Assembly: GCA_027459505.1 (NCBI GenBank)
Contig: DAIDIE010000006.1
Span: forward strand, 1-64,000
Direction of reading: 5' to 3'
Length of the DNA stretch: 64,000 bases
Origin: Acidobacteriota bacterium
GTDB taxonomy: Bacteria > Acidobacteriota > Terriglobia > Terriglobales > SCQP01
Shown: positions 1 through 59,525 of the stretch, piece after piece
How positions within the stretch are numbered: position 1 is the stretch's first letter
Layout of the letters: each line of letters begins with the position of its first letter
The notes under the pieces: generated by a model
Database searches by the model: none
What the model was told of the DNA's origin: nothing
Seen by the model: the letters and a program-made list of their open reading frames with translations, nothing else
Made by a program: the position numbers and the translations under genes

Positions 1-1213
1 CCGCTGCGGTGGAGTCAGGAACCGACGCCGTTACCGGGGCCGATGCCGGGGCGGTTGCCGGGCCCGCTGCCGCGCCGGCGGCGGCTGAGGCGGCCTGGGT
101 GTTAGGCGCGGGCGCGGTTACCGGGGCCGCTGCCTGGGAGGCCTGCTGCCGGGCGTCGGCTTCCAGAGCTTGGACTTCATACGACAGCTGCGCATCACGC
201 GAAACGTGCGCATCACGCGAAACTTGCGCTTCACGCGATGCGTGCGCTTCACGGGACACGTGCGCTTCGCGCGAGACTTGCGCTCCACGGGACATGTGCG
301 CTTCGCGCTGTGACTTCGCTGAAGGGTCCGCTAATGCTTCCGCTTCCCGCTGGGCGTCCGCTTCCTGCTGGGCTTGCTGCGAGGCCTCGGCCTGGCGGAG
401 CTCTTCTTTCTGCAGCTCTTCTTCCTGGAGCGCAAGTTCCTCTTCAATAAAGCCGAAGCGGGTGGGCTGGTGCCCATTGCGTTGCGCGTATTCAGGCTGG
501 GCGGATTCGGACTGGGCGGATTCGGGCTGGGCAAAATCCGGACGGGCGTGATTCCCGCGCGCGGATTCGGCGGTGTGGCCGTTCGCGTCGGTATCTTGGA
601 CTTGCGTGCCCTGGGCCTGCATGCCGCGGGCCTGCGCCTTGCTGCGCATACGGCTCTCGTGTTTCAGGCGCAGGTCGTTGATGAGGGCTTCGCGGCGACG
701 GCGGGCGGCCTCGATGTTAGTCTCCTCGGCGGCGAGTTCATCGGCTTCCATGGCCTGGGCGTGGGCCTGCTCCTGGGCGAGGCGGACGCATTCGCGCTCG
801 TACTCCTCGTCTTCCATGCGGCACTGCTTCTCGTAGTCGAGCGGGTCGTGGGCGTTGGCGGTTCGGATGAGAAGGTTGACGTTTTCATACATCTGCTTGC
901 CGAGGCGGCCTCCGCAGATGTTCATGGTGATCTTGGAGGATTCCTTGTGGCCGGTGAGGGCGCGATTGAGCGAGCGCGTCATGAGCAGGCCGCCGTAGCG
1001 CAGCACGCGGTGGAAGGAGCGCTCGGCGAACCAGGCCTGGAAGGCGAAGTCGAACTCCATCCAGCGATAGAAGGTGGAGCGGGAGATGTGCGCCTTTTTG
1101 CAGAGCGCGGAGATAGAGAGGTCGTCTTCGTCGGCTTCGACGATGAGGACAAAACGGAATTGCGCGGGCGTCGGTTTGAAGTTCGCGTAAGCGAATTGTG
1201 GAGACGCAGACAT
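1..1213 (-). CDS. HTH-containing protein with E/A-rich coiled coil and hexapeptide repeats (3'-partial)
   Basis: The frame is open from an ATG at 1213 to the window edge, giving 404 codons with no stop. Residues 34-52 (SALCKKAHISRSTFYRWME) look like a helix-turn-helix of the kind found in phage terminase-small-subunit-like or TetR-like proteins. Residues ~140-300 are Glu/Ala/Gln-rich and probably helical or coiled coil. They include a short PESAQ-type pentapeptide repeat and, at about residues 300-341, SREAHV-type hexapeptides encoded by an 18-bp minisatellite. The tail to the edge is Ala/Pro/Thr-rich low complexity. I do not recognise the family. A DNA-binding head on a long disordered or coiled tail is what can be seen; the function is unknown. 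The plus-strand frame over the same DNA is a shadow. Confidence 0.7.
   Translation of the reverse strand, partial: MSASPQFAYANFKPTPAQFRFVLIVEADEDDLSISALCKKAHISRSTFYRWMEFDFAFQAWFAERSFHRVLRYGGLLMTRSLNRALTGHKESSKITMNICGGRLGKQMYENVNLLIRTANAHDPLDYEKQCRMEDEEYERECVRLAQEQAHAQAMEADELAAEETNIEAARRRREALINDLRLKHESRMRSKAQARGMQAQGTQVQDTDANGHTAESARGNHARPDFAQPESAQSESAQPEYAQRNGHQPTRFGFIEEELALQEEELQKEELRQAEASQQAQQEADAQREAEALADPSAKSQREAHMSRGAQVSREAHVSREAHASREAQVSRDAHVSRDAQLSYEVQALEADARQQASQAAAPVTAPAPNTQAASAAAGAAAGPATAPASAPVTASVPDSTAA
190..316. repeat. 18-bp minisatellite inside the HTH protein gene
   Basis: About seven head-to-tail copies of an 18-bp unit with the plus-strand core GCGCTTCACGCGA. They keep the minus-strand frame open and encode six-residue repeats (SREAHV, SREAHA, SREAQV, SRDAHV). 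The units differ by scattered substitutions, so the array is not brand new. Confidence 0.85.
495..545. repeat. 15-bp repeat inside the HTH protein gene
   Basis: About three copies of a 15-bp unit (core GGCGGATTCGG on the plus strand) encode PESAQ, SESAQ, PEYAQ on the minus strand. This is a second, independent short tandem array within the same gene. Confidence 0.7.
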
Positions 1214-1623: not shown

Positions 1624-1695
1624 CGGTGCGGGACCTAAGCGGCAACCCCGGACCTTGGCTACGACTTCGGCCTGCGATCTCGAACTCGAAAGCAG
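1624..1695. repeat. Family B dispersed repeat, copy 1
   Basis: Shares GGTGCGGGACCTAA, GACCTTGGCTA and CGATCTCGAACTCGAAAGCA with copies at 37919-38010 and (shorter) 17941-17995. Here it joins directly onto a Family A repeat, so the two families may be modules of a larger element. Confidence 0.8.
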
Positions 1696-2003
1696 GAGGC
1701 ACGGCTTCGTCTGCTGAGCGCCCGCCGGCATTGCTTGCTGGCGGGTCGCTGGCGCGTTCTCCAGTGAGACCGTGAAGCCGCCGAGGCCGGGCCCCTCTGC
1801 CGCGCGAGCCACACAACGAAGCCAGACCTTCGATGCCAGCGGGGCTTCGCGGGGCCCCGGCGGGGGGGGCCTTCCCACCCCGACAAAGCAAACTGCGCTT
1901 TGTTGGAGGCCCTCGGGAGAATTTCGCGGCCCTCCACTGGGGATTTCCTCCGGCGAACTCTCCGGCTATTTCTACCAAGGGGAGGACTCGGTGGCTCGCT
2001 TCT
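1693..2003 (+). repeat. Family A dispersed repeat, copy 1 (long form)
   Basis: About 310 bp. It runs from GGCACGGCTTCGTCTGCTGA to the right end GGACTCGGTGGCTCGCTTCT. It carries the extra middle block (GAAGCCAGACCTTCGATGCC, then an AACTGCGCTTTGTTGG segment) that is otherwise seen only in the copy at 47782-48082. Confidence 0.85.
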
Positions 2004-2961: not shown

Positions 2962-3025
2962 GGGAGGCACCGCCTCGTCTCCTGGGCGCCCGCCGGCGTT
3001 GGTTTCTGGCGGGTCGCTGGCACAT
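2962..3025 (+). repeat. Family A dispersed repeat, copy 2 (left part only)
   Basis: Matches the left ~65 bp of Family A (GCCTCGTCTCCTGGGCGCCC, then GCGGGTCGCTGGCACA). It sits just upstream of the nuclease gene and creates a spurious upstream ATG at 3025 in that frame. Confidence 0.8.
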
Positions 3026-3068
3026 TTGTTCGCAGGTTGACCCCGCATCGGCCCGCTTCGCTTGCTAT

Positions 3069-3186: not shown

Positions 3187-4022
3187 GCCGGGCTAGTCTT
3201 GCCCGGCGCCGGGCGGTGTCTATGTCCTTGGCGTGCTGGGCAGGCGGGCGAGCTGGGACGGGGTAGTGCATTGGTTGGCGGGTTGAGGAGTGCTTGGCGA
3301 TTTATTCCTTTCTCTTTTTTCTTTCCGTCGACGGGACTCGGCGGATCATTCCCTTTGATCCACCTGGCTGCTTGCACGGAACATTCGAATATCGTTTCTC
3401 GCAAACACGCGGGGCGTCCGTCGGCGCTCGCCGGCTGGCGCCGGGGCCCCGTCCCGCCTGGGATGGAAGTTTGCTTTGGCTGCGAGGCGGGACGGGGCAT
3501 GGAGCGCTTCGCGGTTTTCATTTTTTGATTCGCGGCTTCGAGCAGACCCGGCATACGCGCTTCGCGCTATGCCGGGCTAGTCTTGCCCGGCGCCGGGCGG
3601 TGTCTCGGTCCTTGGCGCGGTGGCAGGCGCGCGGGCTGGGACGCAGTACTGCATTGGTTGGCGGCTTGGCGGGGCTGGGGGATGGGAGTCGGGTGGCGGG
3701 TTGGAGGCGGATTCTACGGTCCGCCGTTTACAGTGCGCGACGGGTTTCCATTTGTTTACCCTTCACAGTTCACAGTTCACCGTGGGGCGTTGCTGGGGAT
3801 TGGCGGCGCGGTTGACCTTGGCGGTTTCCCACTCAACAAAAAACGTTGAGGGGCACCCTGGAAGTCACTCCCCCTCACGGTATCCCAATCTCAAAGGTAT
3901 AGGGGCAGCCGGCTTGGGCCGGCGCTCGCTCCTGGGGGCTCGCTGCTGCCCTTCCCAGCGACTTTGTCGCTGGCCACTTTCCCCGGGGGCGTGGCTCCGC
4001 CACGCTCTCCTGGGGATTCCAT
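3181..4022. repeat. Composite repeat array downstream of queC
   Basis: Non-coding. In order: a Family C fragment (3184-3285) with the palindrome GCCCGGCGCCGGGC; a 14-bp perfect-stem hairpin GCCCCGTCCCGCCT / AGGCGGGACGGGGC (3446-3498); a fuller Family C copy (3540-3735) with the CCCGGCATA / TATGCCGGG stem; Family D (3757-3850), with CAGTTCA heptamers and the CTCAAC...GTTGAG hairpin; and Family E (3851-4022). E contains CCAGCGACTTTGTCGCTGG (3955-3973) and GCGTGGCTCCGCCACGC (3989-4005). The array ends at the queC stop codon, so queC transcripts probably terminate in or run into these hairpins. Confidence 0.8.
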
Positions 4023-6083: not shown

Positions 6084-7108
6084 TGCACGGTTTACAGTTT
6101 ACAGTTCACAGTTCACCGTGGGGCGTTGCTGGGGGTTGGCGGCGCGGTTGACCTTGGCGGTTTTCCCACTCAACAAAAAACGTTGAGGCTCACCCGGAAG
6201 GGAGTGGGGTATGAGGGATGGGAGATAAGGTGGAGACAATTGTCCGGAGGGGTGTGGCCGCGGCAGGCCGGCTGGCGCCGGGGCCCCGTCCCGCCTGGAG
6301 TGGATGTGCTGCTTAGCTTCGCGGCGGGACGGGGCTTGGAGGCTGCGCGACATTTTGTTTGTTTTGATATCTGGCGACAGGCTGACCCGGCATACGCTCG
6401 CTTCGCTCGACTATGCCGGGCTAGTCTTGCCCGTCGCCGAGCGGCGTTTCCGTGGCCGGCATGCTGGCAGGCGCGCGGGCTGGGACGCAGTAACGCATTG
6501 GTTGGCGGCTTGGCGGGGCTTGGGGATGGGAGTCCGGGTGGCGGGTTGGAGGCGGATTCTACGGTCCGCCGTTTACGGTGCGCGACGGGTTACCGCGGTT
6601 GATCTTGGCGGTTTTCCCATTCAACAAAAAACGTTGAGGGTCACCCGGAAGGGAGTGGGGTATGAGGGATGGGAGATGAGGTGGAGACAATCGTCCGGGG
6701 GTGGGTCGTGGCCGCGGCAGGCCGGCTGGCGCCGGGGCCCCGTCCCGCCTGGAGTGGATGCGCTGCTTAGCTTCGCGGCGGGACGGGGCTTGGAGGCTGC
6801 GCGACGTTTGTTTGTTTTGATAGCTGGCGACAGGCTGACCCGGCATACGCTCGCTTCGCTCGACTATGCCGGGCTAGTCTTGCCCGGCGCCGGGCGGCGT
6901 TTCCGTGGCCGGCATGCTGGCAGGCGCGCGGGCTGGGACGCAGTAACGCATTGGTTGGCGGCTTGGCGGGGCTTGGGGATGGGAGTCCGGGGACGGATTC
7001 TACGGTCCACAGTTTAGGGTGCGCGACGGGTTTCCATTTGTTTACCGTTCACAGTTCCGCGGCGCGGTTGACCTTGGCGGTTTTCCCACTCAACAAAAAA
7101 CGTTGAGT
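6084..7108. repeat. Composite repeat array upstream of queD with a ~450-bp tandem duplication
   Basis: Non-coding. It opens with Family D (6084-6187): heptamers of the GTTTACA/GTTCACA type, GTGGGGCGTTGCTGGGG, then CTCAACAAAAAACGTTGAG. Two near-identical units follow, 6181-6631 (451 bp) and 6632-7100 (469 bp). Each has the GCCCCGTCCCGCC / GGCGGGACGGGGC hairpin (6283-6334; 6738-6789), then Family C with the CCCGGCATA / TATGCCGGG stem, then a closing Family D core. The same modules, in similar order, lie downstream of queC. Confidence 0.85.
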
Positions 7109-7285
7109 GGCACCCTGGAAGTCACTCCCCCAAACGGTATCCCAACCTCAAAGGTATAGGGGCACCCGACTGCGCTCGCTTTACGGGACTCACTTCTTTG
7201 CGCTCTTTCCAGCGACATTGTCGCTGGCTACTTTCCCGGGGCGTGGCTCCGCCACGCTTGCCGGGCATTGCGGGGAGTTCCATCG
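7101..7285. repeat. Family E repeat, direct-repeat partner of 3844-4022
   Basis: Near-identical in its first ~60 bp and in its hairpins to the block just downstream of queC: CACCCTGGAAGTCACTCCCC, CAAAGGTATAGGGGCA, then CCAGCGACATTGTCGCTGG and GCGTGGCTCCGCCACGC. Same orientation as the other copy, so the two bracket the ~2-kb queDEC operon as direct repeats. Confidence 0.85.
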
Positions 7286-7289
7286 GCCC

Positions 7290-7375
7290 GCTAGCGGCGG
7301 CCCGCTCACGGTGGAAGGCTATTCGCGGGAGGCTAGTTGCGGGACGCTAGTCGCGGAAAGCTAGCGGCGGGACGC
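7290..7375. repeat. 14-bp minisatellite over the end of the GT39 gene
   Basis: Six degenerate units of 14 bp (GCTAGTTGCGGGAC, GCTAGTCGCGGAAA, GCTAGCGGCGGGAC and relatives). The GT39 stop codon TAG (7363-7361) and its last residues (VASRR) are encoded by the array. Confidence 0.85.
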
Positions 7376-9160
7376 TACTATTGCCCACTGACCATCTTTG
7401 GTTGCGCTGAATTGATGGCGCAGGCGCAGAGTGCGCAGCAGGGCCGGGCCCTTGAGGGGCGGCTGGTGCTGGAAGAGTTTGTCGCCTACACGCTGCCACC
7501 AGGGGAACAGACGGGCGAGGTTGTGCGCGGGCTGGTATTCGCGGGAATACAAGAGGGCGCTGTTCCAGGCGGATTGTGCCGAGGCGGGCGAGGCTGCGAC
7601 GCCTTGCAGCGGTACGGCCACGTCTCCTGAGCCGCCCGCCGGCCCCGTCCCAACCGTGAACCTGGTGGCTCGCTTCTGTGGCGGCGCTGCGGGGCCTTGC
7701 AGCGGCTGGTCATCGGTGGTGCGCAGGGGCAGCGTGAAGTTCTCCAGACGGACTACGCGCAGCGGACGGCGGACATAGCCCAGGTCCGGGTTGCTGAGTT
7801 CGTCCGTGGCAGGCCAGGCGGAAAGGACCGGCTGCAGTTGGCGATGCGCCTCCAGATCAGCGGCGGCGCGCTGCTGCAACTGTATAAAGCTGGCGTAGGC
7901 CAGGTTGTCTTCATAAGGGAACGGGTAGGGCGGGTTCCAGAACCAGTTCGCCACCAAAACCGCCACGCAGAGCGCCACTACCTCCCACGCCCAGCGCAGG
8001 CGCAGCAGCTGTCGCGCGCACAACACGAAATAGAGTGCCGCAACCGGCAGCAGGTAGCGGGCCAAGACCGCGCCGCCCACGGCGGCATGAAACAGCAGCG
8101 AAACCGCGATCAGCAGCGCGAATTCCCCGGCCATGCGCCGCGTGGTCTCTTCTGTGGCCGGCGCGGGCGCGTGTGGGGCCGATCGCTGGTCCGCTACTCG
8201 CTTCCGCAGTCGCGGCCAAAGAGCGGCCGCAGCGGCCAGCACGGTTACCGGCAAGACGCCCTGGTATCCGGCAAGTTGCCAGACGCGGCGCGCGAGGGCC
8301 ATCAGCATGCGCGGCAGTGAGGCGGCTTGTTGCACGTTGTAGCTGAGGTATTGCGGATTGCCAACCCAGAACCCGGTGACGTGGTGGTAATAGGCAAACC
8401 AGCAGAGCAGCGCCAAGGCGGGGGCGAAATGTGGGGCGAGCCGGCGCAACGAGACTGATGCCGGGAGCTTTGCGCGCCAGCAACGGCCAAGGTCCAGGAC
8501 GCCCAGCGCAAAGGGCAGGATGATGAGGGTGTCTTTGCTTAAGCAGCCCGCGGCCGCGCATACGGCATAGGCGAGAGGCCGGTCGCGGTAGCGGAACACC
8601 AGCGCCCAGATCCAGAAGCAGGCCGCCGCGAGATCGAGTTGCGCCAGGGTGGCCTGGGCAAAGGCGATGGGCCAGCAGGCCAGCAGCAGGGCGGTAACGA
8701 TTCCCAGGCGGCGGCCGCCGAAGCGTTCACCGAGACGGAAGGCGCCCCACAGCAGCAGGGCATAAAAGACCAGCATGCCGCCGCGGGTGACGAGAGGAGC
8801 GAAGCCAAACGTTTTCCAGAGCAGCGCCAGCCAGGCCATCACCAGCGGTGGATGTCCGTTGGGCGGGGTGGTGCGGGAGACCCACCAGCCATGGCGCAGC
8901 AGATCGAGTGAAGCGGGAACGAAGTAGCCCGCCTCATCCCAGAAATAGGGCAGCTTCAGCAGCGGGGCATGCAGCAGCAGCGCGAGGGCATAGATGGAGG
9001 GAACGGCAAGCAGAGGCGCTCTCCAAGCGGAGCGCCGCGGGCCGGAGGCGGGGGGCACAGCCTCGTCTCCTTCAGGCCGCCCGCTCCCGTGGGCCAGAGG
9101 CACGGAGCTGCCTCGCCCGGCGGGCTGGGCTCCGGCGGGCGTCGCTGCATTGGGCGTCAC
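7361..9160 (-). CDS. GT39-family (ArnT/PMT-like) membrane glycosyltransferase with two repeat insertions
   Basis: 599 residues. Predicted integral membrane protein with many hydrophobic segments between ~48 and 430 and the family's acidic pair D75-E76 in the first periplasmic loop (PYFWDEAGYF). Such enzymes move a sugar from a polyprenyl phosphate donor to protein or lipid at the outer face of the inner membrane. The GTG start overlaps the DUF3467 stop by 4 bp (GTGA). Odd points: residues ~5-40 and ~495-516 are translated Family A repeat (PAG...GDEAVPP and GPAGGSGDVAVP), and the extreme C-terminus is minisatellite. The insertions are in frame and outside the membrane core, so the enzyme may still work. 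Acceptor unknown. Confidence 0.8.
   Translation of the reverse strand: MTPNAATPAGAQPAGRGSSVPLAHGSGRPEGDEAVPPASGPRRSAWRAPLLAVPSIYALALLLHAPLLKLPYFWDEAGYFVPASLDLLRHGWWVSRTTPPNGHPPLVMAWLALLWKTFGFAPLVTRGGMLVFYALLLWGAFRLGERFGGRRLGIVTALLLACWPIAFAQATLAQLDLAAACFWIWALVFRYRDRPLAYAVCAAAGCLSKDTLIILPFALGVLDLGRCWRAKLPASVSLRRLAPHFAPALALLCWFAYYHHVTGFWVGNPQYLSYNVQQAASLPRMLMALARRVWQLAGYQGVLPVTVLAAAAALWPRLRKRVADQRSAPHAPAPATEETTRRMAGEFALLIAVSLLFHAAVGGAVLARYLLPVAALYFVLCARQLLRLRWAWEVVALCVAVLVANWFWNPPYPFPYEDNLAYASFIQLQQRAAADLEAHRQLQPVLSAWPATDELSNPDLGYVRRPLRVVRLENFTLPLRTTDDQPLQGPAAPPQKRATRFTVGTGPAGGSGDVAVPLQGVAASPASAQSAWNSALLYSREYQPAHNLARLFPWWQRVGDKLFQHQPPLKGPALLRTLRLRHQFSATKDGQWAIVASRR
7612..7677 (+). repeat. Family A dispersed repeat, copy 3 (inside GT39 coding sequence)
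   Basis: Carries both the left end (CGTCTCCTGAGCCGCCCGCC) and the right end (GGTGGCTCGCTTCT) of Family A with most of the middle missing, within an open reading frame. This looks like insertion followed by internal deletion. Confidence 0.75.
9044..9104 (+). repeat. Family A dispersed repeat, copy 4 (inside GT39 N-terminus)
   Basis: A degenerate left part of Family A (GCACAGCCTCGTCTCC, then GGCCGCCCGCTCCCG) in the region encoding GT39 residues ~18-39. The peptide GDEAVPP matches what Family A encodes in the same frame elsewhere. Confidence 0.6.
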
Positions 9161-9453
9161 TGCACTGGGCCGCCGGCGCCCGGCAAAGGGGTCAACTGAA
9201 TTTCACCAAAGGCCTTCTCGTAACCCGCCACGTGATTCTGCAGCAGGGCCAGCACGGCCTTGGCCTGCTGCGGGCTGAGGTAGATGCCCTGAAACATCCG
9301 CACCTCGACCTCTTCCGGAACGGTCTGTTCCATCACGCCGAACTGCAGGAAGAAGTCCCAGGTGCTGGGGCGGACCTGCACGGAGTTGGCGTAGTTTTCC
9401 CGGTAGTCGGGGCGCTGGGTGAGTTTAATGCGAGGCTGGTTGGGAGGGTTCAT
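9157..9453 (-). CDS. DUF3467 family protein
   Basis: 98 residues. The pattern RPDYRENYANSVQVRPSTWD, followed by VEVRMFQGIYLSPQQAKAVL and a FGEI near the end, is the DUF3467 signature. The family is small, cytoplasmic and of unknown function. Its stop overlaps the GTG of the downstream glycosyltransferase by 4 bp, so the two are co-translated. The ATG at 9453 has no competitor in frame. Confidence 0.85.
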   Translation of the reverse strand: MNPPNQPRIKLTQRPDYRENYANSVQVRPSTWDFFLQFGVMEQTVPEEVEVRMFQGIYLSPQQAKAVLALLQNHVAGYEKAFGEIQLTPLPGAGGPVQ

Positions 9454-15210: not shown

Positions 15211-15214
15211 GTGA

Positions 15215-15331
15215 GAGGCCCGGCCTCGTCTCCTGAGCCGCCCGCCGGGCATTGCAAGCTGGCGGGTCGCGCGGCCCTCCACTTCTGCTCCGCCGGCTGG
15301 TTCCAAGGGGAAGACTCGGTGGCTCGCTCCT
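15215..15331 (+). repeat. Family A dispersed repeat, copy 5 (internally deleted)
   Basis: Left end GGCCTCGTCTCCTGAGCCGC, then GCTGGCGGGTCGCGCGGCCC, then the right end GAAGACTCGGTGGCTCGCTC. The GTGAAGCCGCCGATGCC block is missing. It lies between two plus-strand genes. Confidence 0.8.
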
Positions 15332-20863: not shown

Positions 20864-23800
20864 ATGTCCGGCACCCATGCGCGGATTTTCCGCCTCACAA
20901 CCGTCATTGCCTTAGCCGCTCTAGGCGGCATTCTGGGCTTCTCTAAAATGGCCGCAGCGCAGGAGGCGCCCTATGGGGGAACGCCCTGGGCGCTGCCCGG
21001 CAGCGTGCAGGCGGAAAACTTCGATACGGGCGGAGAGAGCGTCGGCTACTACACGCAGAACAACACCAATCAGGGCGGGCAATACCGCACCTCCGAGGGC
21101 GTCAGCATTGAGACGACCTCCGACACTGGAGGCGGATACGACGTTGGCTGGACGACGGCGGGGGAATGGCTGAACTTCACGGTGAATGTGGCCACCTCGG
21201 GCACCTACTCCATTCAAGCGCGTGTGGCTTGCAACGGAGCGGGCGGGACCTTTCACTTCAACGTTGACGGCGTTTCGGCAACATCTGAATTGACGGTGCC
21301 CAACACCGGCGGGTGGCAGACCTGGACCACCATTTCGACCAACATCAGTCTGACCGCCGGCCAGCACGTCATCCAGCTCTCTATGGACAGTGCGGGCGGC
21401 TCGGGTGCGGTGGGCAATTTCAACTGGTTTTCAGTGGTGAGCACAGAGGCGCCCTATGGTGGCACACCGTGGGCGCTGCCTGGCACCGTGCAGGCGGAGA
21501 ACTTCGACACCGGCGGCGAAAACATTGGCTACTACACGCAGAACAACACCAACCAGGGCGGGCAGTACCGCACCTCGGAGGGAGTCAGCATTGAGGCGAG
21601 CTCCGATACCGGAGGTGGCTACGATGTCGGCTGGACCACGGCGGGGGAATGGCTGAACTTCACGGTGAATGTGGCCACCTCGGGCACATACTCCATCCAG
21701 ACGCGTGTGGCTTGCAACGGAGCGGGCGGGACATTTCACTTCAACGTGGACGGGGTTTCGGCCACCTCCGAAGTCACGGTCCCCAATACCGGCGGCTGGC
21801 AGACTTGGACCACCGTCTCGACCAACATCAATCTGACCGCCGGCCAACACGTGGTTCAGCTCTTTATGGACAGTGTGGGGGCCTCGGGAAGCGTGGGCAA
21901 CTTCAATTGGTTTGAGGTGGTAAGCAGCGAGGGTCCCTACGGGGGAACGCCCTGGACATTGCCGGGCACGGTGCAGGCGGAAAACTTCGATACCGGCGGA
22001 GAAAACGTTGGCTACTACACGCAGAACAACACCAACCAGGGCGGGCAGTACCGCACCTCGGAGGGGGTCAGCATCGAGGCGACCTCCGATACCGGGGGTG
22101 GCTACGATGTGGGTTGGACCACGGCGGGGGAATGGCTGAACTACACCGTCAACGTCAGCGCGGCGGGCACGTACACGATGCAGGCGCGGGTCGCCAGTAA
22201 CGGCGCCGGCGGCACGTTCCACTTCAATGTGGATGGGGCAACGGCGACCTCGGAGCTGACTGTTCCCAATACCGGCGGCTGGCAAACCTGGACCACCGTA
22301 TCCGGCACGATCACCCTAAGCGCGGGACAGCACGTTCTGCAGCTTTTCATGGACAGCGTGGGCAGCACCGGCGGTGTGGGGAATTTCAACTGGGTTGCGG
22401 TGCAGAGTAGCAGCAACGGCGAAGGGCCGTATGGCGGAACGCCGTGGACGTTGCCCGGCACGGTACAGGCGGAAAACTTCGATACTGGCGGGGAAAACAT
22501 TGGCTACTACACGCAGAACAACACCAACCAGGGCGGGCAATACCGCACCTCGGAAGGTGTAAGTATCGAGACGAGTTCCGATACCGGAGGTGGCTATGAC
22601 GTTGGGTGGACCACGGCGGGGGAATGGCTCAACTACACCGTCGACGTCAGCGCGGCGGGAACGTACACCATCGCCGCGCGGGTGGCGTGTAATGGGGCGG
22701 GGGGGACGTTCCATTTCAACGTGGATGGAGCGTCCGCGACGGCGGAACTGACGACCCCGAATACCGGGGGTTGGCAAACCTGGACCACGGTGTCTACCAC
22801 GATCACGCTGAGCGCGGGGCAGCACATCATCCAGCTCTTTATGGACAGTGTGGGCAGTTCGGGGAGCGTGGGCAACTTCAATTGGTTTTCGGTCAGCGCG
22901 CCATCCAACGGCGCGCCGAACTTCGGCCCCAACGTTTTGATTTTCGACCCGTCGATGCCGTCGTCCACGATCCAGAGTCAGTTGGATAGCGTTTTCAATA
23001 ACCAGCAATCGAACCAGTTCGGAACGAGCCGCTACGCGCTGCTGTTCAAGCCGGGCACTTACAACAACACGGTTCGGGTCGGCTTCTACACCCAAGTGCT
23101 GGGACTGGGAATGTCGCCCGACGATGTCACTATCAATGGCGCGGTGCAGGCGGACGCGCAGTGGTTCAACGGCAACGCCACGCAAAACTTCTGGCGTGGG
23201 GCCGAGAACCTTGCCGTGGTGCCGTCGGGCGGGACGGACATGTGGGCGGTCTCGCAGTCCTGCCCGCTGCGGCGTGTCCACATCAAAGGCAACCTTATTC
23301 TGGACGATAACGGGGGCTGGTCGAGTGGCGGATTTCTTGCCGACTCGGTTATCGACAACCAGATCAATTCCGGGACGCAGCAGCAATGGTTATCGCGGAA
23401 CGATCAGTGGGGGAGCTGGACGGGGTCGAGCTTCAACATGGTATTTGTGGGCGACGTGAACGCGCCGGCGCAATCGTTTCCCAGTCCGGCGTACACGGTC
23501 GTGGGACAGACGCCGGAGGTGCGGGAAAAGCCGTTCCTGGTGATTGACGCTTCCGGCAACTATGGAGTTTTCGTTCCGGCTCTGACCAGCAACACGTCGG
23601 GGACCAGCTGGTCCAGCGGCGTGGCGCCGGGGACGACGATTCCGATCAGCCAGTTCTACATTGCTCAGGCCAGCACCGACACGGCGGCCAGCATCAACAA
23701 CGCGCTCAGCCAGGGGCTGAACCTGATTCTGACGCCGGGCGTTTACCAACTGAGCGAACCGATCAACGTAACCCGCGCCAATACCGTGGTGCTGGGGCTG

Positions 23801-24553
23801 GGAATTGCCACCCTGCAACCCACCAACGGCAACGCGGCGATGACGGTGTCCGATGTGGACGGCGTCATTCTCGCCGGCATCCTGTTTGACGCGGGGGCGA
23901 ACAACTCAGCGGTTCTGTTGCAGGTAGGGCCGCCGGGAAGCTCGGCCAGCCACAGCTCCGACCCCATCTCGTTGCATGATCTATTCTTCCGGGTAGGAGG
24001 AGCGGCGGCTGGCCAGGCCACGGAAAGCCTGGAGATCAACAGCAGCGACGTTATTGGCGACGACTTCTGGATCTGGCGCGCCGATCATAGCTACGGGGTT
24101 GGCTGGACTACCAACCCAGCCGCGAATGGGCTGGTGGTCAACGGCAACAATGTGACCGTCTACGGCCTGGCGGTGGAGCACTACCAGCAATACCAGACGC
24201 TTTGGAACGGCGACAACGGGCGCGTCTATTTTTATCAGAGTGAGGAGCCCTACGATGTACCCGACCAGAGCAGTTGGATGAACGGCAGCGAGGACGGCTA
24301 CGCCTCCTACAAAGTGGCGGACACGGTGACCAGTCACCAAGCGTGGGGCGTGGGTGTGTACTGCTACTTCTCCACCAACTCGAGTGTGGTTCTGCAGAAC
24401 GCCTTCGAAGCGCCCAACGTGAGCGGCGTGCAGTTCCACGATCTGCTGACCTGGTCGATTGGCGGCACCGGCACGATTGCCAACATCATCAACAATACGG
24501 GTGGGGCGGCGAACTCCACGAATAACACCGCGCATTTGACGCAATACCCATGA
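20864..24553 (+). CDS. Secreted protein with four CBM6 domains and a right-handed beta-helix
   Basis: 1229 residues. A signal peptide spans ~1-33 (ending AAAQ). Four near-identical CBM6-type domains follow, starting at residues 34, 195, 356 and 520; each is ~161-164 residues and carries YGGTPWALPG, EGVSIE..DTGGGYDVGWT and NFNWF. The C-terminal ~550 residues (from NFGPNVLIFDPSM) resemble a beta-helix region that databases sometimes label 'adenylyl cyclase' in actinomycetes, a label nothing here supports; a polysaccharide-active beta-helix is more likely (inference). CBM6 domains bind xylan or beta-glucans. The four copies are alike at DNA level, which suggests recent duplication. The gene ends in a strong terminator. 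Confidence 0.85.
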   Translation: MSGTHARIFRLTTVIALAALGGILGFSKMAAAQEAPYGGTPWALPGSVQAENFDTGGESVGYYTQNNTNQGGQYRTSEGVSIETTSDTGGGYDVGWTTAGEWLNFTVNVATSGTYSIQARVACNGAGGTFHFNVDGVSATSELTVPNTGGWQTWTTISTNISLTAGQHVIQLSMDSAGGSGAVGNFNWFSVVSTEAPYGGTPWALPGTVQAENFDTGGENIGYYTQNNTNQGGQYRTSEGVSIEASSDTGGGYDVGWTTAGEWLNFTVNVATSGTYSIQTRVACNGAGGTFHFNVDGVSATSEVTVPNTGGWQTWTTVSTNINLTAGQHVVQLFMDSVGASGSVGNFNWFEVVSSEGPYGGTPWTLPGTVQAENFDTGGENVGYYTQNNTNQGGQYRTSEGVSIEATSDTGGGYDVGWTTAGEWLNYTVNVSAAGTYTMQARVASNGAGGTFHFNVDGATATSELTVPNTGGWQTWTTVSGTITLSAGQHVLQLFMDSVGSTGGVGNFNWVAVQSSSNGEGPYGGTPWTLPGTVQAENFDTGGENIGYYTQNNTNQGGQYRTSEGVSIETSSDTGGGYDVGWTTAGEWLNYTVDVSAAGTYTIAARVACNGAGGTFHFNVDGASATAELTTPNTGGWQTWTTVSTTITLSAGQHIIQLFMDSVGSSGSVGNFNWFSVSAPSNGAPNFGPNVLIFDPSMPSSTIQSQLDSVFNNQQSNQFGTSRYALLFKPGTYNNTVRVGFYTQVLGLGMSPDDVTINGAVQADAQWFNGNATQNFWRGAENLAVVPSGGTDMWAVSQSCPLRRVHIKGNLILDDNGGWSSGGFLADSVIDNQINSGTQQQWLSRNDQWGSWTGSSFNMVFVGDVNAPAQSFPSPAYTVVGQTPEVREKPFLVIDASGNYGVFVPALTSNTSGTSWSSGVAPGTTIPISQFYIAQASTDTAASINNALSQGLNLILTPGVYQLSEPINVTRANTVVLGLGIATLQPTNGNAAMTVSDVDGVILAGILFDAGANNSAVLLQVGPPGSSASHSSDPISLHDLFFRVGGAAAGQATESLEINSSDVIGDDFWIWRADHSYGVGWTTNPAANGLVVNGNNVTVYGLAVEHYQQYQTLWNGDNGRVYFYQSEEPYDVPDQSSWMNGSEDGYASYKVADTVTSHQAWGVGVYCYFSTNSSVVLQNAFEAPNVSGVQFHDLLTWSIGGTGTIANIINNTGGAANSTNNTAHLTQYP
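20963..22912 (+). repeat. Four tandem ~483-bp CBM6 coding repeats
   Basis: Units start at 20963, 21446, 21929 and 22421. Nucleotide identity is high (for example CCCTATGGGGGAACGCCCTG is nearly shared), with the fewest differences in the central GGCGGGCAATACCGCACCTC area. This is a candidate substrate for slippage or recombination. Confidence 0.9.
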
Positions 24554-24679: not shown

Positions 24680-24940
24680 TTACCAGGTGTCGTTGACGTA
24701 CCCCGTACCGCTGCAGGGCACGTTGTAGTAGTGATTGCTCCCCGGCTCCCAGATCACGTTGCCATCGGACTGAATGTCGATGTACTTGTACTGGATGGTG
24801 GTGCAGGCGGGTACGGAGACGTTCAGGAACCAACTCGGGTAATTCGGCGCCAACATGGGCCCAACCGCGCTGCTGAAGGTTGTACCCCAGTTGCCCAACT
24901 CCACGGTGTTGCCGGTTACGTAAATGGCGGCCTCTCCCAC
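24680..24940 (-). pseudogene. CBM20 starch-binding domain remnant
   Basis: 86 residues that are almost exactly one CBM20 domain (VTGNTVELGNWG, APNYPSWFLNVSVPA, TTIQYKYI, VIWEPGSNHYYNVP). Such domains sit at the C-terminus of secreted amylases and related hydrolases, and no catalytic part or signal peptide is present. The GTG that opens the frame lies in the junction with the right end of a Family A repeat, so the 5' part of the gene was probably replaced or deleted there. Alternatively it was once the C-terminus of the GH30 gene 112 bp upstream. No function expected. Confidence 0.65.
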
Positions 24941-24965
24941 AGGGAGGACTCGGTGGCTCGCTCCT
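24932..24965 (+). repeat. Family A dispersed repeat, copy 6 (right end only)
   Basis: CTCTCCCACAGGGAGGACTC then GGTGGCTCGCTCCT, identical in layout to the right end of the copy at 47782-48082. It abuts the truncated CBM20 coding sequence. Confidence 0.8.
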
Positions 24966-27097: not shown

Positions 27098-27289
27098 GGG
27101 AGGCACGGCCTCGTCTCCTGAGCCGCCCGCTGGCATTGCTTTCCGTTGGGTCGCTGGCACGTTCCCCAGTGAGAACGTGAAGCCGCCGATGCCGGGCTCC
27201 TCTCCCGCGCGAGAGGGCCGCCCTTCGGAATTTCGCGGCCCTCCACCTGAGATCTCCTCCCGCAGGGAGGACTCGGTGGCTCGCTCCTA
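27098..27289 (+). repeat. Family A dispersed repeat, copy 7 (short complete form)
   Basis: Left end GGCACGGCCTCGTCTCCTGA, middle GTGAAGCCGCCGATGCCGGG, then GGAATTTCGCGGCCCTCCAC, right end GGACTCGGTGGCTCGCTCCT. This and 37648-37837 are the best models for the ~190-bp form. Confidence 0.9.
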
Positions 27290-32744: not shown

Positions 32745-32791
32745 GTCTTTAATTTATGGCAGGGAACGGCAATTTTGGGGAGCCCGTGTGC

Positions 32792-32893
32792 GAGGCACGG
32801 CATCGTCTCCTGAGCCGCCCGCCGGCATTGCTTTCCGTTGAATCGCTGGCACGTTCTCCAGTGAGACCGTGAAGCCGCCGATGCCGGGCTCCT
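32792..32893 (+). repeat. Family A dispersed repeat, copy 8 (left part)
   Basis: GGCACGGCATCGTCTCCTGA through GTGAAGCCGCCGATGCCGGG, ending abruptly at 32893 where other copies continue. Same orientation as all others. Confidence 0.85.
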
Positions 32894-33080
32894 GTTCGCG
32901 ATGGCTTTGGCTAGTGAGGCGGACTACCTGGTGACCGGCGACCGCCGCTCTGGACTGCTTGAGCGCCGCCGTCCCGGTCGAACGCGCATCCTGTCCCCGG
33001 CAAGCTTCTGTGCCGAGGTGCTCTGAAGCGGAGGGTGGGAAGCCGCGGCCCATGCATCGCAAGTTGTTGCAAGGAGATGG

Positions 33081-37647: not shown

Positions 37648-37837
37648 GGAGGCACGGCCTCGTCTCCTGAGCCGCACGCTGGCATTGCTTTCCGTTGGGT
37701 CGCTGGCACGTTCTCCAGTGAGAACGTGAAGCCGCCGATGCCGGGCTCCTCGCCCCCGCGAGGGAGCCGCCCTTCGGAATTTCGCGGCCCTCCACCTGCG
37801 ATCTCCTCCCGCCGGGAGGACTCGGTGGCTCGCTCCT
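37648..37837 (+). repeat. Family A dispersed repeat, copy 9 (short complete form)
   Basis: Nearly identical to copy 7 (27098-27289) across both ends and the GGAATTTCGCGGCCCTCCAC block. Directly upstream of the FAH gene start. Confidence 0.9.
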
Positions 37838-47745: not shown

Positions 47746-47781
47746 GAGGGTGGCGGCACGGCAGTGACTACCGAAGACCGA

Positions 47782-48082
47782 AGCACGGTCTCGTCTCCTG
47801 AGCCGCCCGCCGGCATTGCACCATCGTTGGGTCGCTGGCACGTTCTTCGGTGAGACCGTGACGCCACCGATGCCGGGTCCTTTCCCGCGCGAGCCACATA
47901 ACGAAGCCAGACCTTCAACGCCAACGAGGCTTCGCGGGGGGCCCCGGCGGGAGCGGGCCGCCCTTCTTAGCCCAACAAAGCAAGCTGCGCTTTGTTGGGG
48001 ACCCTTGGAGAATTTCGCGGCCCTCCCCTGGCGATCTCCTCCGGCGATCTCTCCCACAGGGAGGACTCGGTGGCTGGCTCCT
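47782..48082 (+). repeat. Family A dispersed repeat, copy 10 (long form)
   Basis: Full-length ~300 bp copy with the extra block (GAAGCCAGACCTTC through GCTGCGCTTTGTTGGG), matching 1693-2003 in order. Right end reads GGTGGCTGGCTCC, one change from consensus. It fills most of the gap between the M48 gene and the next gene. Confidence 0.9.
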
Positions 48083-59371: not shown

Positions 59372-59454
59372 AGAGGCACGGCCTCGTGTCTGAGCCGCCC
59401 GCCGGCATTGATTTCTGGCGGGTCGCTGGCACGTTCTCCGGTGAGGCCGTGAAG
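59372..59454 (+). repeat. Family A dispersed repeat, copy 11 (left part)
   Basis: GGCACGGCCTCGTGTCTGAG through GGTGAGGCCGTGAAG, cut off before the right end. Located between recG and the TonB receptor gene. Confidence 0.8.
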
Positions 59455-59525
59455 CTGAGGCGGCGCGAATCAGCATCTTAGCGCCGCAGATCCACCGGGG
59501 CTGCGGCAACGGGACGAAACACTCT

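Follow-up and report, generated by a model that had tools for sequence, protein, structure and literature searches.

The open reading frame of a membrane glycosyltransferase in a soil Acidobacteriota bacterium carries two short pieces resembling an interspersed repeat of the same genome, which raises the question of whether a small repeat has entered a protein-coding gene in frame, and by which route. The host of the window, by which we mean the whole 64,000-nt stretch of DNA analyzed here, belongs to the Terriglobales and is represented by a 4.06-Mb draft genome in 45 contigs. A sequence-only reading of the window had assigned both pieces to one repeat, designated Family A, and this assignment was borne out by matches to the element ends and by the E-values of the alignments.

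Family A is an interspersed repeat of ~190 nt with sharp ends that occurs at more than 130 sites of the genome. Using a 202-base query, we recovered ~41 near-full copies with 87–97% identity. Pattern searches yielded 71 genome matches for the main 5' end, 45 for a 5' end variant containing TTCAGG and at least 115 for the 3' end, and reversed control patterns gave no match genome-wide. The total is a lower bound, with several contigs starting within an element. Full copies mostly measure 170–190 nt, with larger classes near 220–240 and 300 nt, and modular variants span 120–310 nt (Table 1). The element has a predicted minimum free energy of -89.6 kcal/mol and folds modestly better than shuffled sequences (z-score -1.72); the consensus fold contains an imperfect sub-terminal pairing of 8–9 bp between TGAGCCGCC and GGTGGCTC, and a 5' end hairpin (GAGGC-ACG-GCCTC) followed by GTC forms a CGTC tag-like end. 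A comparison with Rfam gave no match to Family A, a tRNA being the sole known RNA in the window, and viral contigs contained no exact match to either element end. Related, diverged repeats with a common GGGCCGCCCTTCGGAATTTCGCGGCCC hairpin are present in relatives of the same family, and another genus of the family (genome G013) carries a related repeat with other ends, the same central hairpin and a GGAGGACTCGGTGGCT end.

Table 1 Features of the glycosyltransferase locus and Family A copies in the window and, where a contig is named, elsewhere in the genome
Feature	Position	Strand	Remark
PMT_2/GT39-like membrane glycosyltransferase	7361..9160	-	intact open frame, 599 aa from GTG 9160
DUF3467 gene	9157..9453	-	PF11950, E 1e-21; upstream in same operon, TGA overlaps GTG 9160
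Family A copy, internally deleted	7608..7679	+	antisense to glycosyltransferase
Genome-specific insertion, residues 479-516 (38 aa)	7613..7726	-	in frame; in 0/106 orthologues
Imperfect 26-bp direct repeat, left copy	7587..7612	.	
Imperfect 26-bp direct repeat, right copy	7680..7705	.	
Family A truncated copy, TTCAGG variant, 5' part only	9049..9104	+	between DUF3467 stop and conserved glycosyltransferase part
Possible ribosome-binding site AAGGAG (9072-9067) and GTG (9058-9056)	9056..9072	-	inside element; candidate alternative glycosyltransferase start
Family A full-length reference copy	27099..27288	+	190 nt, intergenic
Family A full-length copy	37648..37837	+	
Family A long variant	1695..2003	+	about 310 nt
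Family A long variant	47779..48082	+	about 304 nt
Family A short copy	15214..15331	+	both ends kept
Family A truncated copy	32791..32896	+	5' part
Family A truncated copy	59372..59457	+	5' part
Family A truncated copy	2963..3026	+	5' part
Family A truncated copy	24933..24965	+	3' end only
Two in-frame Family A copies in one 448-codon HTH-like frame	C39 21032-21221 and 21513-21701		gene C39 20631-21974 (-)
In-frame Family A copy in paralogous HTH-like gene	C31 75791-75971		

The host gene was assigned by a Pfam match to PMT_2 (PF13231, E 8e-8, 33.1 bits against a cut-off of 26.1), and the predicted structure is helical and GT-C-like. An AlphaFold model based on 29 sequences reached a mean pLDDT of 82.9. 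Orthologues were found in 56/60 relatives, and the named relatives of the glycosyltransferase come from Acidobacteriota of the Terriglobia/Acidobacteriales; in this comparison with genomes of other genera, the nearest orthologue is 56% identical over its best segment.

Within this gene, the copy at 7608–7679 lacks most of the interior of the consensus: the first ~36 nt are retained with a few changes and the last ~17 nt are present, with only a short remnant of internal sequence between them. Its 5' end (7615–7639) differs from Family A at one of 25 positions, a pattern whose reversed control had no match genome-wide, and its 3' end shares 14 nt with the variant 3' end GGTGGCTCGCTTCT. Both ends are thus retained within ~72 nt, as the earlier reading had claimed. 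When the protein is aligned with 106 distinct orthologues, residues 479–516 stand out as its sole long segment specific to this genome. The interval from the conserved F of ENFT to the conserved Y of YSREY comprises 62 residues here, in comparison to 0–30 in the orthologues, 79 of which have exactly 20. The segment falls into a low-complexity, proline-rich loop, for which AlphaFold gives a pLDDT below 50 (residues 479–527, between strands 469–472 and 534–538), whereas the other parts of the protein are modeled confidently. The element-derived peptide GPAGGSGDVAVP occupies residues 506–517 and reads as first proposed, with its position corrected from ~502–513. Other Family A copies would encode similar peptides in the same frame, another claim that held: GGSGDEAVPP-like peptides are encodable at ~134 Family A sites. 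The 7608 segment is derived from the element, lies in frame in a predicted disordered loop and is missing in all 106 orthologues, with continuous flanks.

How the segment arrived is a separate matter. The most probable explanation is that Family A is a non-autonomous structured repeat, which would have spread in this lineage mostly into intergenic DNA. One copy would have entered the surface loop of the C-terminal domain in antisense orientation, adding a net multiple of three without stop codons; it would subsequently have lost most of its interior and could persist as the loop tolerates extra residues. Rare insertions into genes would survive only if the frame is kept, stops are avoided and a tolerant loop is hit. 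We infer that the copy arrived by transposition rather than recombination, that it is neutral and that the internal deletion came later. As an alternative, the loop may have grown by local duplication or recombination, with a Family A fragment taken up as patch DNA. An imperfect 26-bp direct repeat indeed brackets the fragment (22/26 identical, 12 in a row exact); its offset of 93 nt corresponds to 31 codons, and it is the only such pair at that distance in the window. Moreover, the fragment reaches only a small part of the length of an intact copy. Family A accounts for about 24 of the ~40 extra residues, leaving about 16 outside the element, of which ~9 are attributable to the 26-bp duplication and the remainder is unexplained. 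However, both Family A ends are present at the fragment edges and a G stands four positions after its 3' end, as in 94% of copies, both of which fit insertion followed by internal loss, so that growth by local duplication appears unlikely. No flanking direct repeats like this pair were seen at other Family A copies, and the 7608 insertion may for this reason have arisen differently from them. It is hardly conceivable that the matches reflect chance similarity in GC-rich coding DNA encoding proline- and alanine-rich protein. The composition of the loop would be in line with it, but we rejected this explanation on the basis of the single mismatch in 25 with no control match, the joint presence of both ends, the E-value of 1e-13 for the second piece and the absence of the segment from orthologues.

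The second piece calls for a different reading. Over 51–64 nt, the copy at 9049–9104 aligns to variant Family A copies with 85–88% identity (E 1e-13 to 1e-15), and its 25-mer CGTCTCCTTCAGGCCGCCCGCTCCC recurs without mismatch at 33 other sites. If translated, it contributes GDEAVPP at residues 31–37, as had been read from the sequence. The first conserved glycosyltransferase residues follow the DUF3467 stop after 158 nt in this genome. Nearly all relatives have a spacer of about 50 to 300 nt, and a single outlier reaches 1354 nt. Because the length of this spacer varies greatly among relatives, the 9049 copy provides no evidence of a protein insertion; the expectation that orthologues would reveal both segments as inserts consequently held for the loop and failed for the N-terminal copy, which lies in a variable spacer or N-terminus. 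The AlphaFold model is disordered in this region too. Along with the insertion into the loop, a second copy would simply have landed in the spacer between the two genes.

Whether the piece is translated at all depends on which GTG serves as the start, and judging from the sequence, initiation at either GTG 9160 or GTG 9058 is plausible. We therefore considered whether the element itself supplies the ribosome-binding site and start codon of the glycosyltransferase (AAGGAG, 8 nt, GTG 9058). The spacing between the two is good, the beginning of a protein initiated at GTG 9058 resembles that of the orthologues and no Shine-Dalgarno sequence is recognizable upstream of GTG 9160. On the other hand, GTG 9160 overlaps the DUF3467 stop (GTGA), representing a usual coupled start, and the GTG frame is not favored over the other two across 122 Family A copies. 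A start provided by the element is consequently a tentative option and the less likely one. With this lack of a frame preference, Family A was also rejected as a general source of ribosome-binding sites and start codons.

As a next step, we investigated the placement of Family A across the genome. Stretches around pattern matches (3 mismatches allowed) were surveyed, resulting in 139 copies, and their flanks were scored by a codon model trained on long genes of the window, so that gene calls correspond to a simple codon score. No coding flank was detected within 150 nt for 102 of the 125 testable copies, as compared with 17% of random window positions, and only 4/125 had coding sequence on both sides, as compared with 40%. 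Family A strongly avoids genes: it is mainly intergenic, with few tolerated in-frame insertions. Copies located in frame within genes number 4/139 (about 3%), in three genes; all four are antisense, on the strand whose frames are open in the consensus. Eroded in-gene fragments such as the 7608 copy are underrepresented in this count by the seeding patterns. In the HTH-like gene on contig C39, paralogue alignment revealed a full-length element as a clean 63-residue insertion between YALLL and LNGLAFE, splitting a conserved domain, and this 63-codon insertion occurs at exactly one point of the alignment. In addition, the reading frame of an acyltransferase on contig C10 extends into a Family A element at its C-terminal end. 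The HTH-like genes carrying Family A are fast-evolving and could be decaying. A fast-evolving paralogous HTH-like family with repeat-rich tails is found at window 908–1180 (-) and about nine other sites; two members show a weak match to HTH_Tnp_1_2.

These counts bear on the suggestion that Family A behaves as a genuine counterpart of the Rickettsia palindromic elements (RPEs), colonizing genes by habit via an open frame. In its favor are the four in-frame copies in three genes, the GGSGDEAVPP-type peptides and a consensus whose antisense strand is free of stop codons in each of the three frames. Against it, the great majority of testable copies are without a coding flank, and the openness of the antisense frames is as expected from base composition: in 24% of shuffled sequences, one strand is likewise open in every frame. 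Coding selection on Family A itself was rejected on the same grounds. A habitual colonizer of genes is therefore quite improbable. The parallel drawn by the sequence-only reading stands for in-frame insertion into genes, which is shared, and falls for the intragenic habit (4/139 copies versus nearly half of RPEs; PMC10969869). Since the repeat is mainly intergenic, the copies within genes appear to be those that selection has spared, not the product of a habit.

The flanks of the elements were further inspected for traces of the insertion chemistry. Among 91 full copies, direct flanking k-mers were not in excess over shuffled pairs in any register, giving no sign of a target-site duplication. 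Among about 100 3' flanks, 94% have a G at the fourth position after the element, with little constraint on the bases before it; this fixed position is a putative insertion-site rule. A search for a cognate transposase, which covered the Y1 family, found none: neither of the two Y1 genes is flanked by Family A in the stretches examined, and both lie beside another palindrome, so that a RAYT (Y1) protein was rejected as the mobilizer of Family A. This other palindrome, CCCACTCAAC...GTTGAGTGGG, is located at window 3825–3914 and 7082–7171 and on both sides of the Y1 (RAYT-like) gene of contig C42, with which it probably forms a REP/RAYT pair.

In-frame insertion of small repeats is known from RPEs, enterobacterial RU elements and Correia elements (PMC10969869, PMC2229807). 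RPEs are 105–150 bp long and clearly palindromic (PMC10969869, PMC2229807). Judged by their description, Family A resembles them as a short repeat found in frame in genes, in tolerant loops and with an open peptide, and also in having no clear target-site duplication or transposase; it differs in its length of ~190 nt, its low intragenic share of about 3% and its fold z-score of only -1.7. RU-1 (ERIC), RU-2, RU-3 and the Neisseria Correia elements, which are miniature inverted-repeat elements (MITEs), are mostly intergenic with some in-frame gene fusions (PMC2229807, PMC2759123), and Family A shares this distribution. In contrast, the inverted repeats of those elements are defined and terminal, and target-site duplications accompany most of them; the inverted repeats of Family A are only sub-terminal and imperfect, and no duplication was detected. 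Finally, GTAG- and CGTC-tagged REPs are likewise high-copy, mostly extragenic and comparable in the CGTC tag-like end, and CGTC repeats are without a dedicated transposase (PMC3733652). However, REPs measure 20–40 bp, in contrast to the ~190-nt, multi-hairpin Family A, and the Y1 genes of this genome adjoin the other palindrome. We did not file Family A as an RPE or a MITE, because the frequent intragenic placement of the former and the target duplication of the latter were not found.

In-gene insertion is itself a known phenomenon, resembling events in other bacteria, and Family A is a new case of it. With this locus, the in-frame entry of small interspersed repeats into protein-coding genes is extended to Acidobacteriota, and the orthologue and paralogue alignments display the state before and after a Family A insertion. 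A further-reaching proposal is that Family A represents an undescribed class of small mobile elements in Acidobacteriota, characterized by the lack of duplication, the fixed G at +4 and occasional translated protein extensions (with two full copies in one gene); we regard this as rather improbable. Should the fixed flanking G without duplication reflect the chemistry of insertion, the set of ~100 intact copies would be well suited to a search for the enzyme.

Two further observations were made in the window. At 32791–32980, a Family A copy adjoins a truncated PIN-like reading frame on the + strand (DYLVTGDRR), which suggests that a gene of the toxin-antitoxin type was broken there by insertion or deletion. 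In addition, four tandem repeats of ~483 nt were identified at 20963–22720 within a 1229-aa frame (20864–24553, +).
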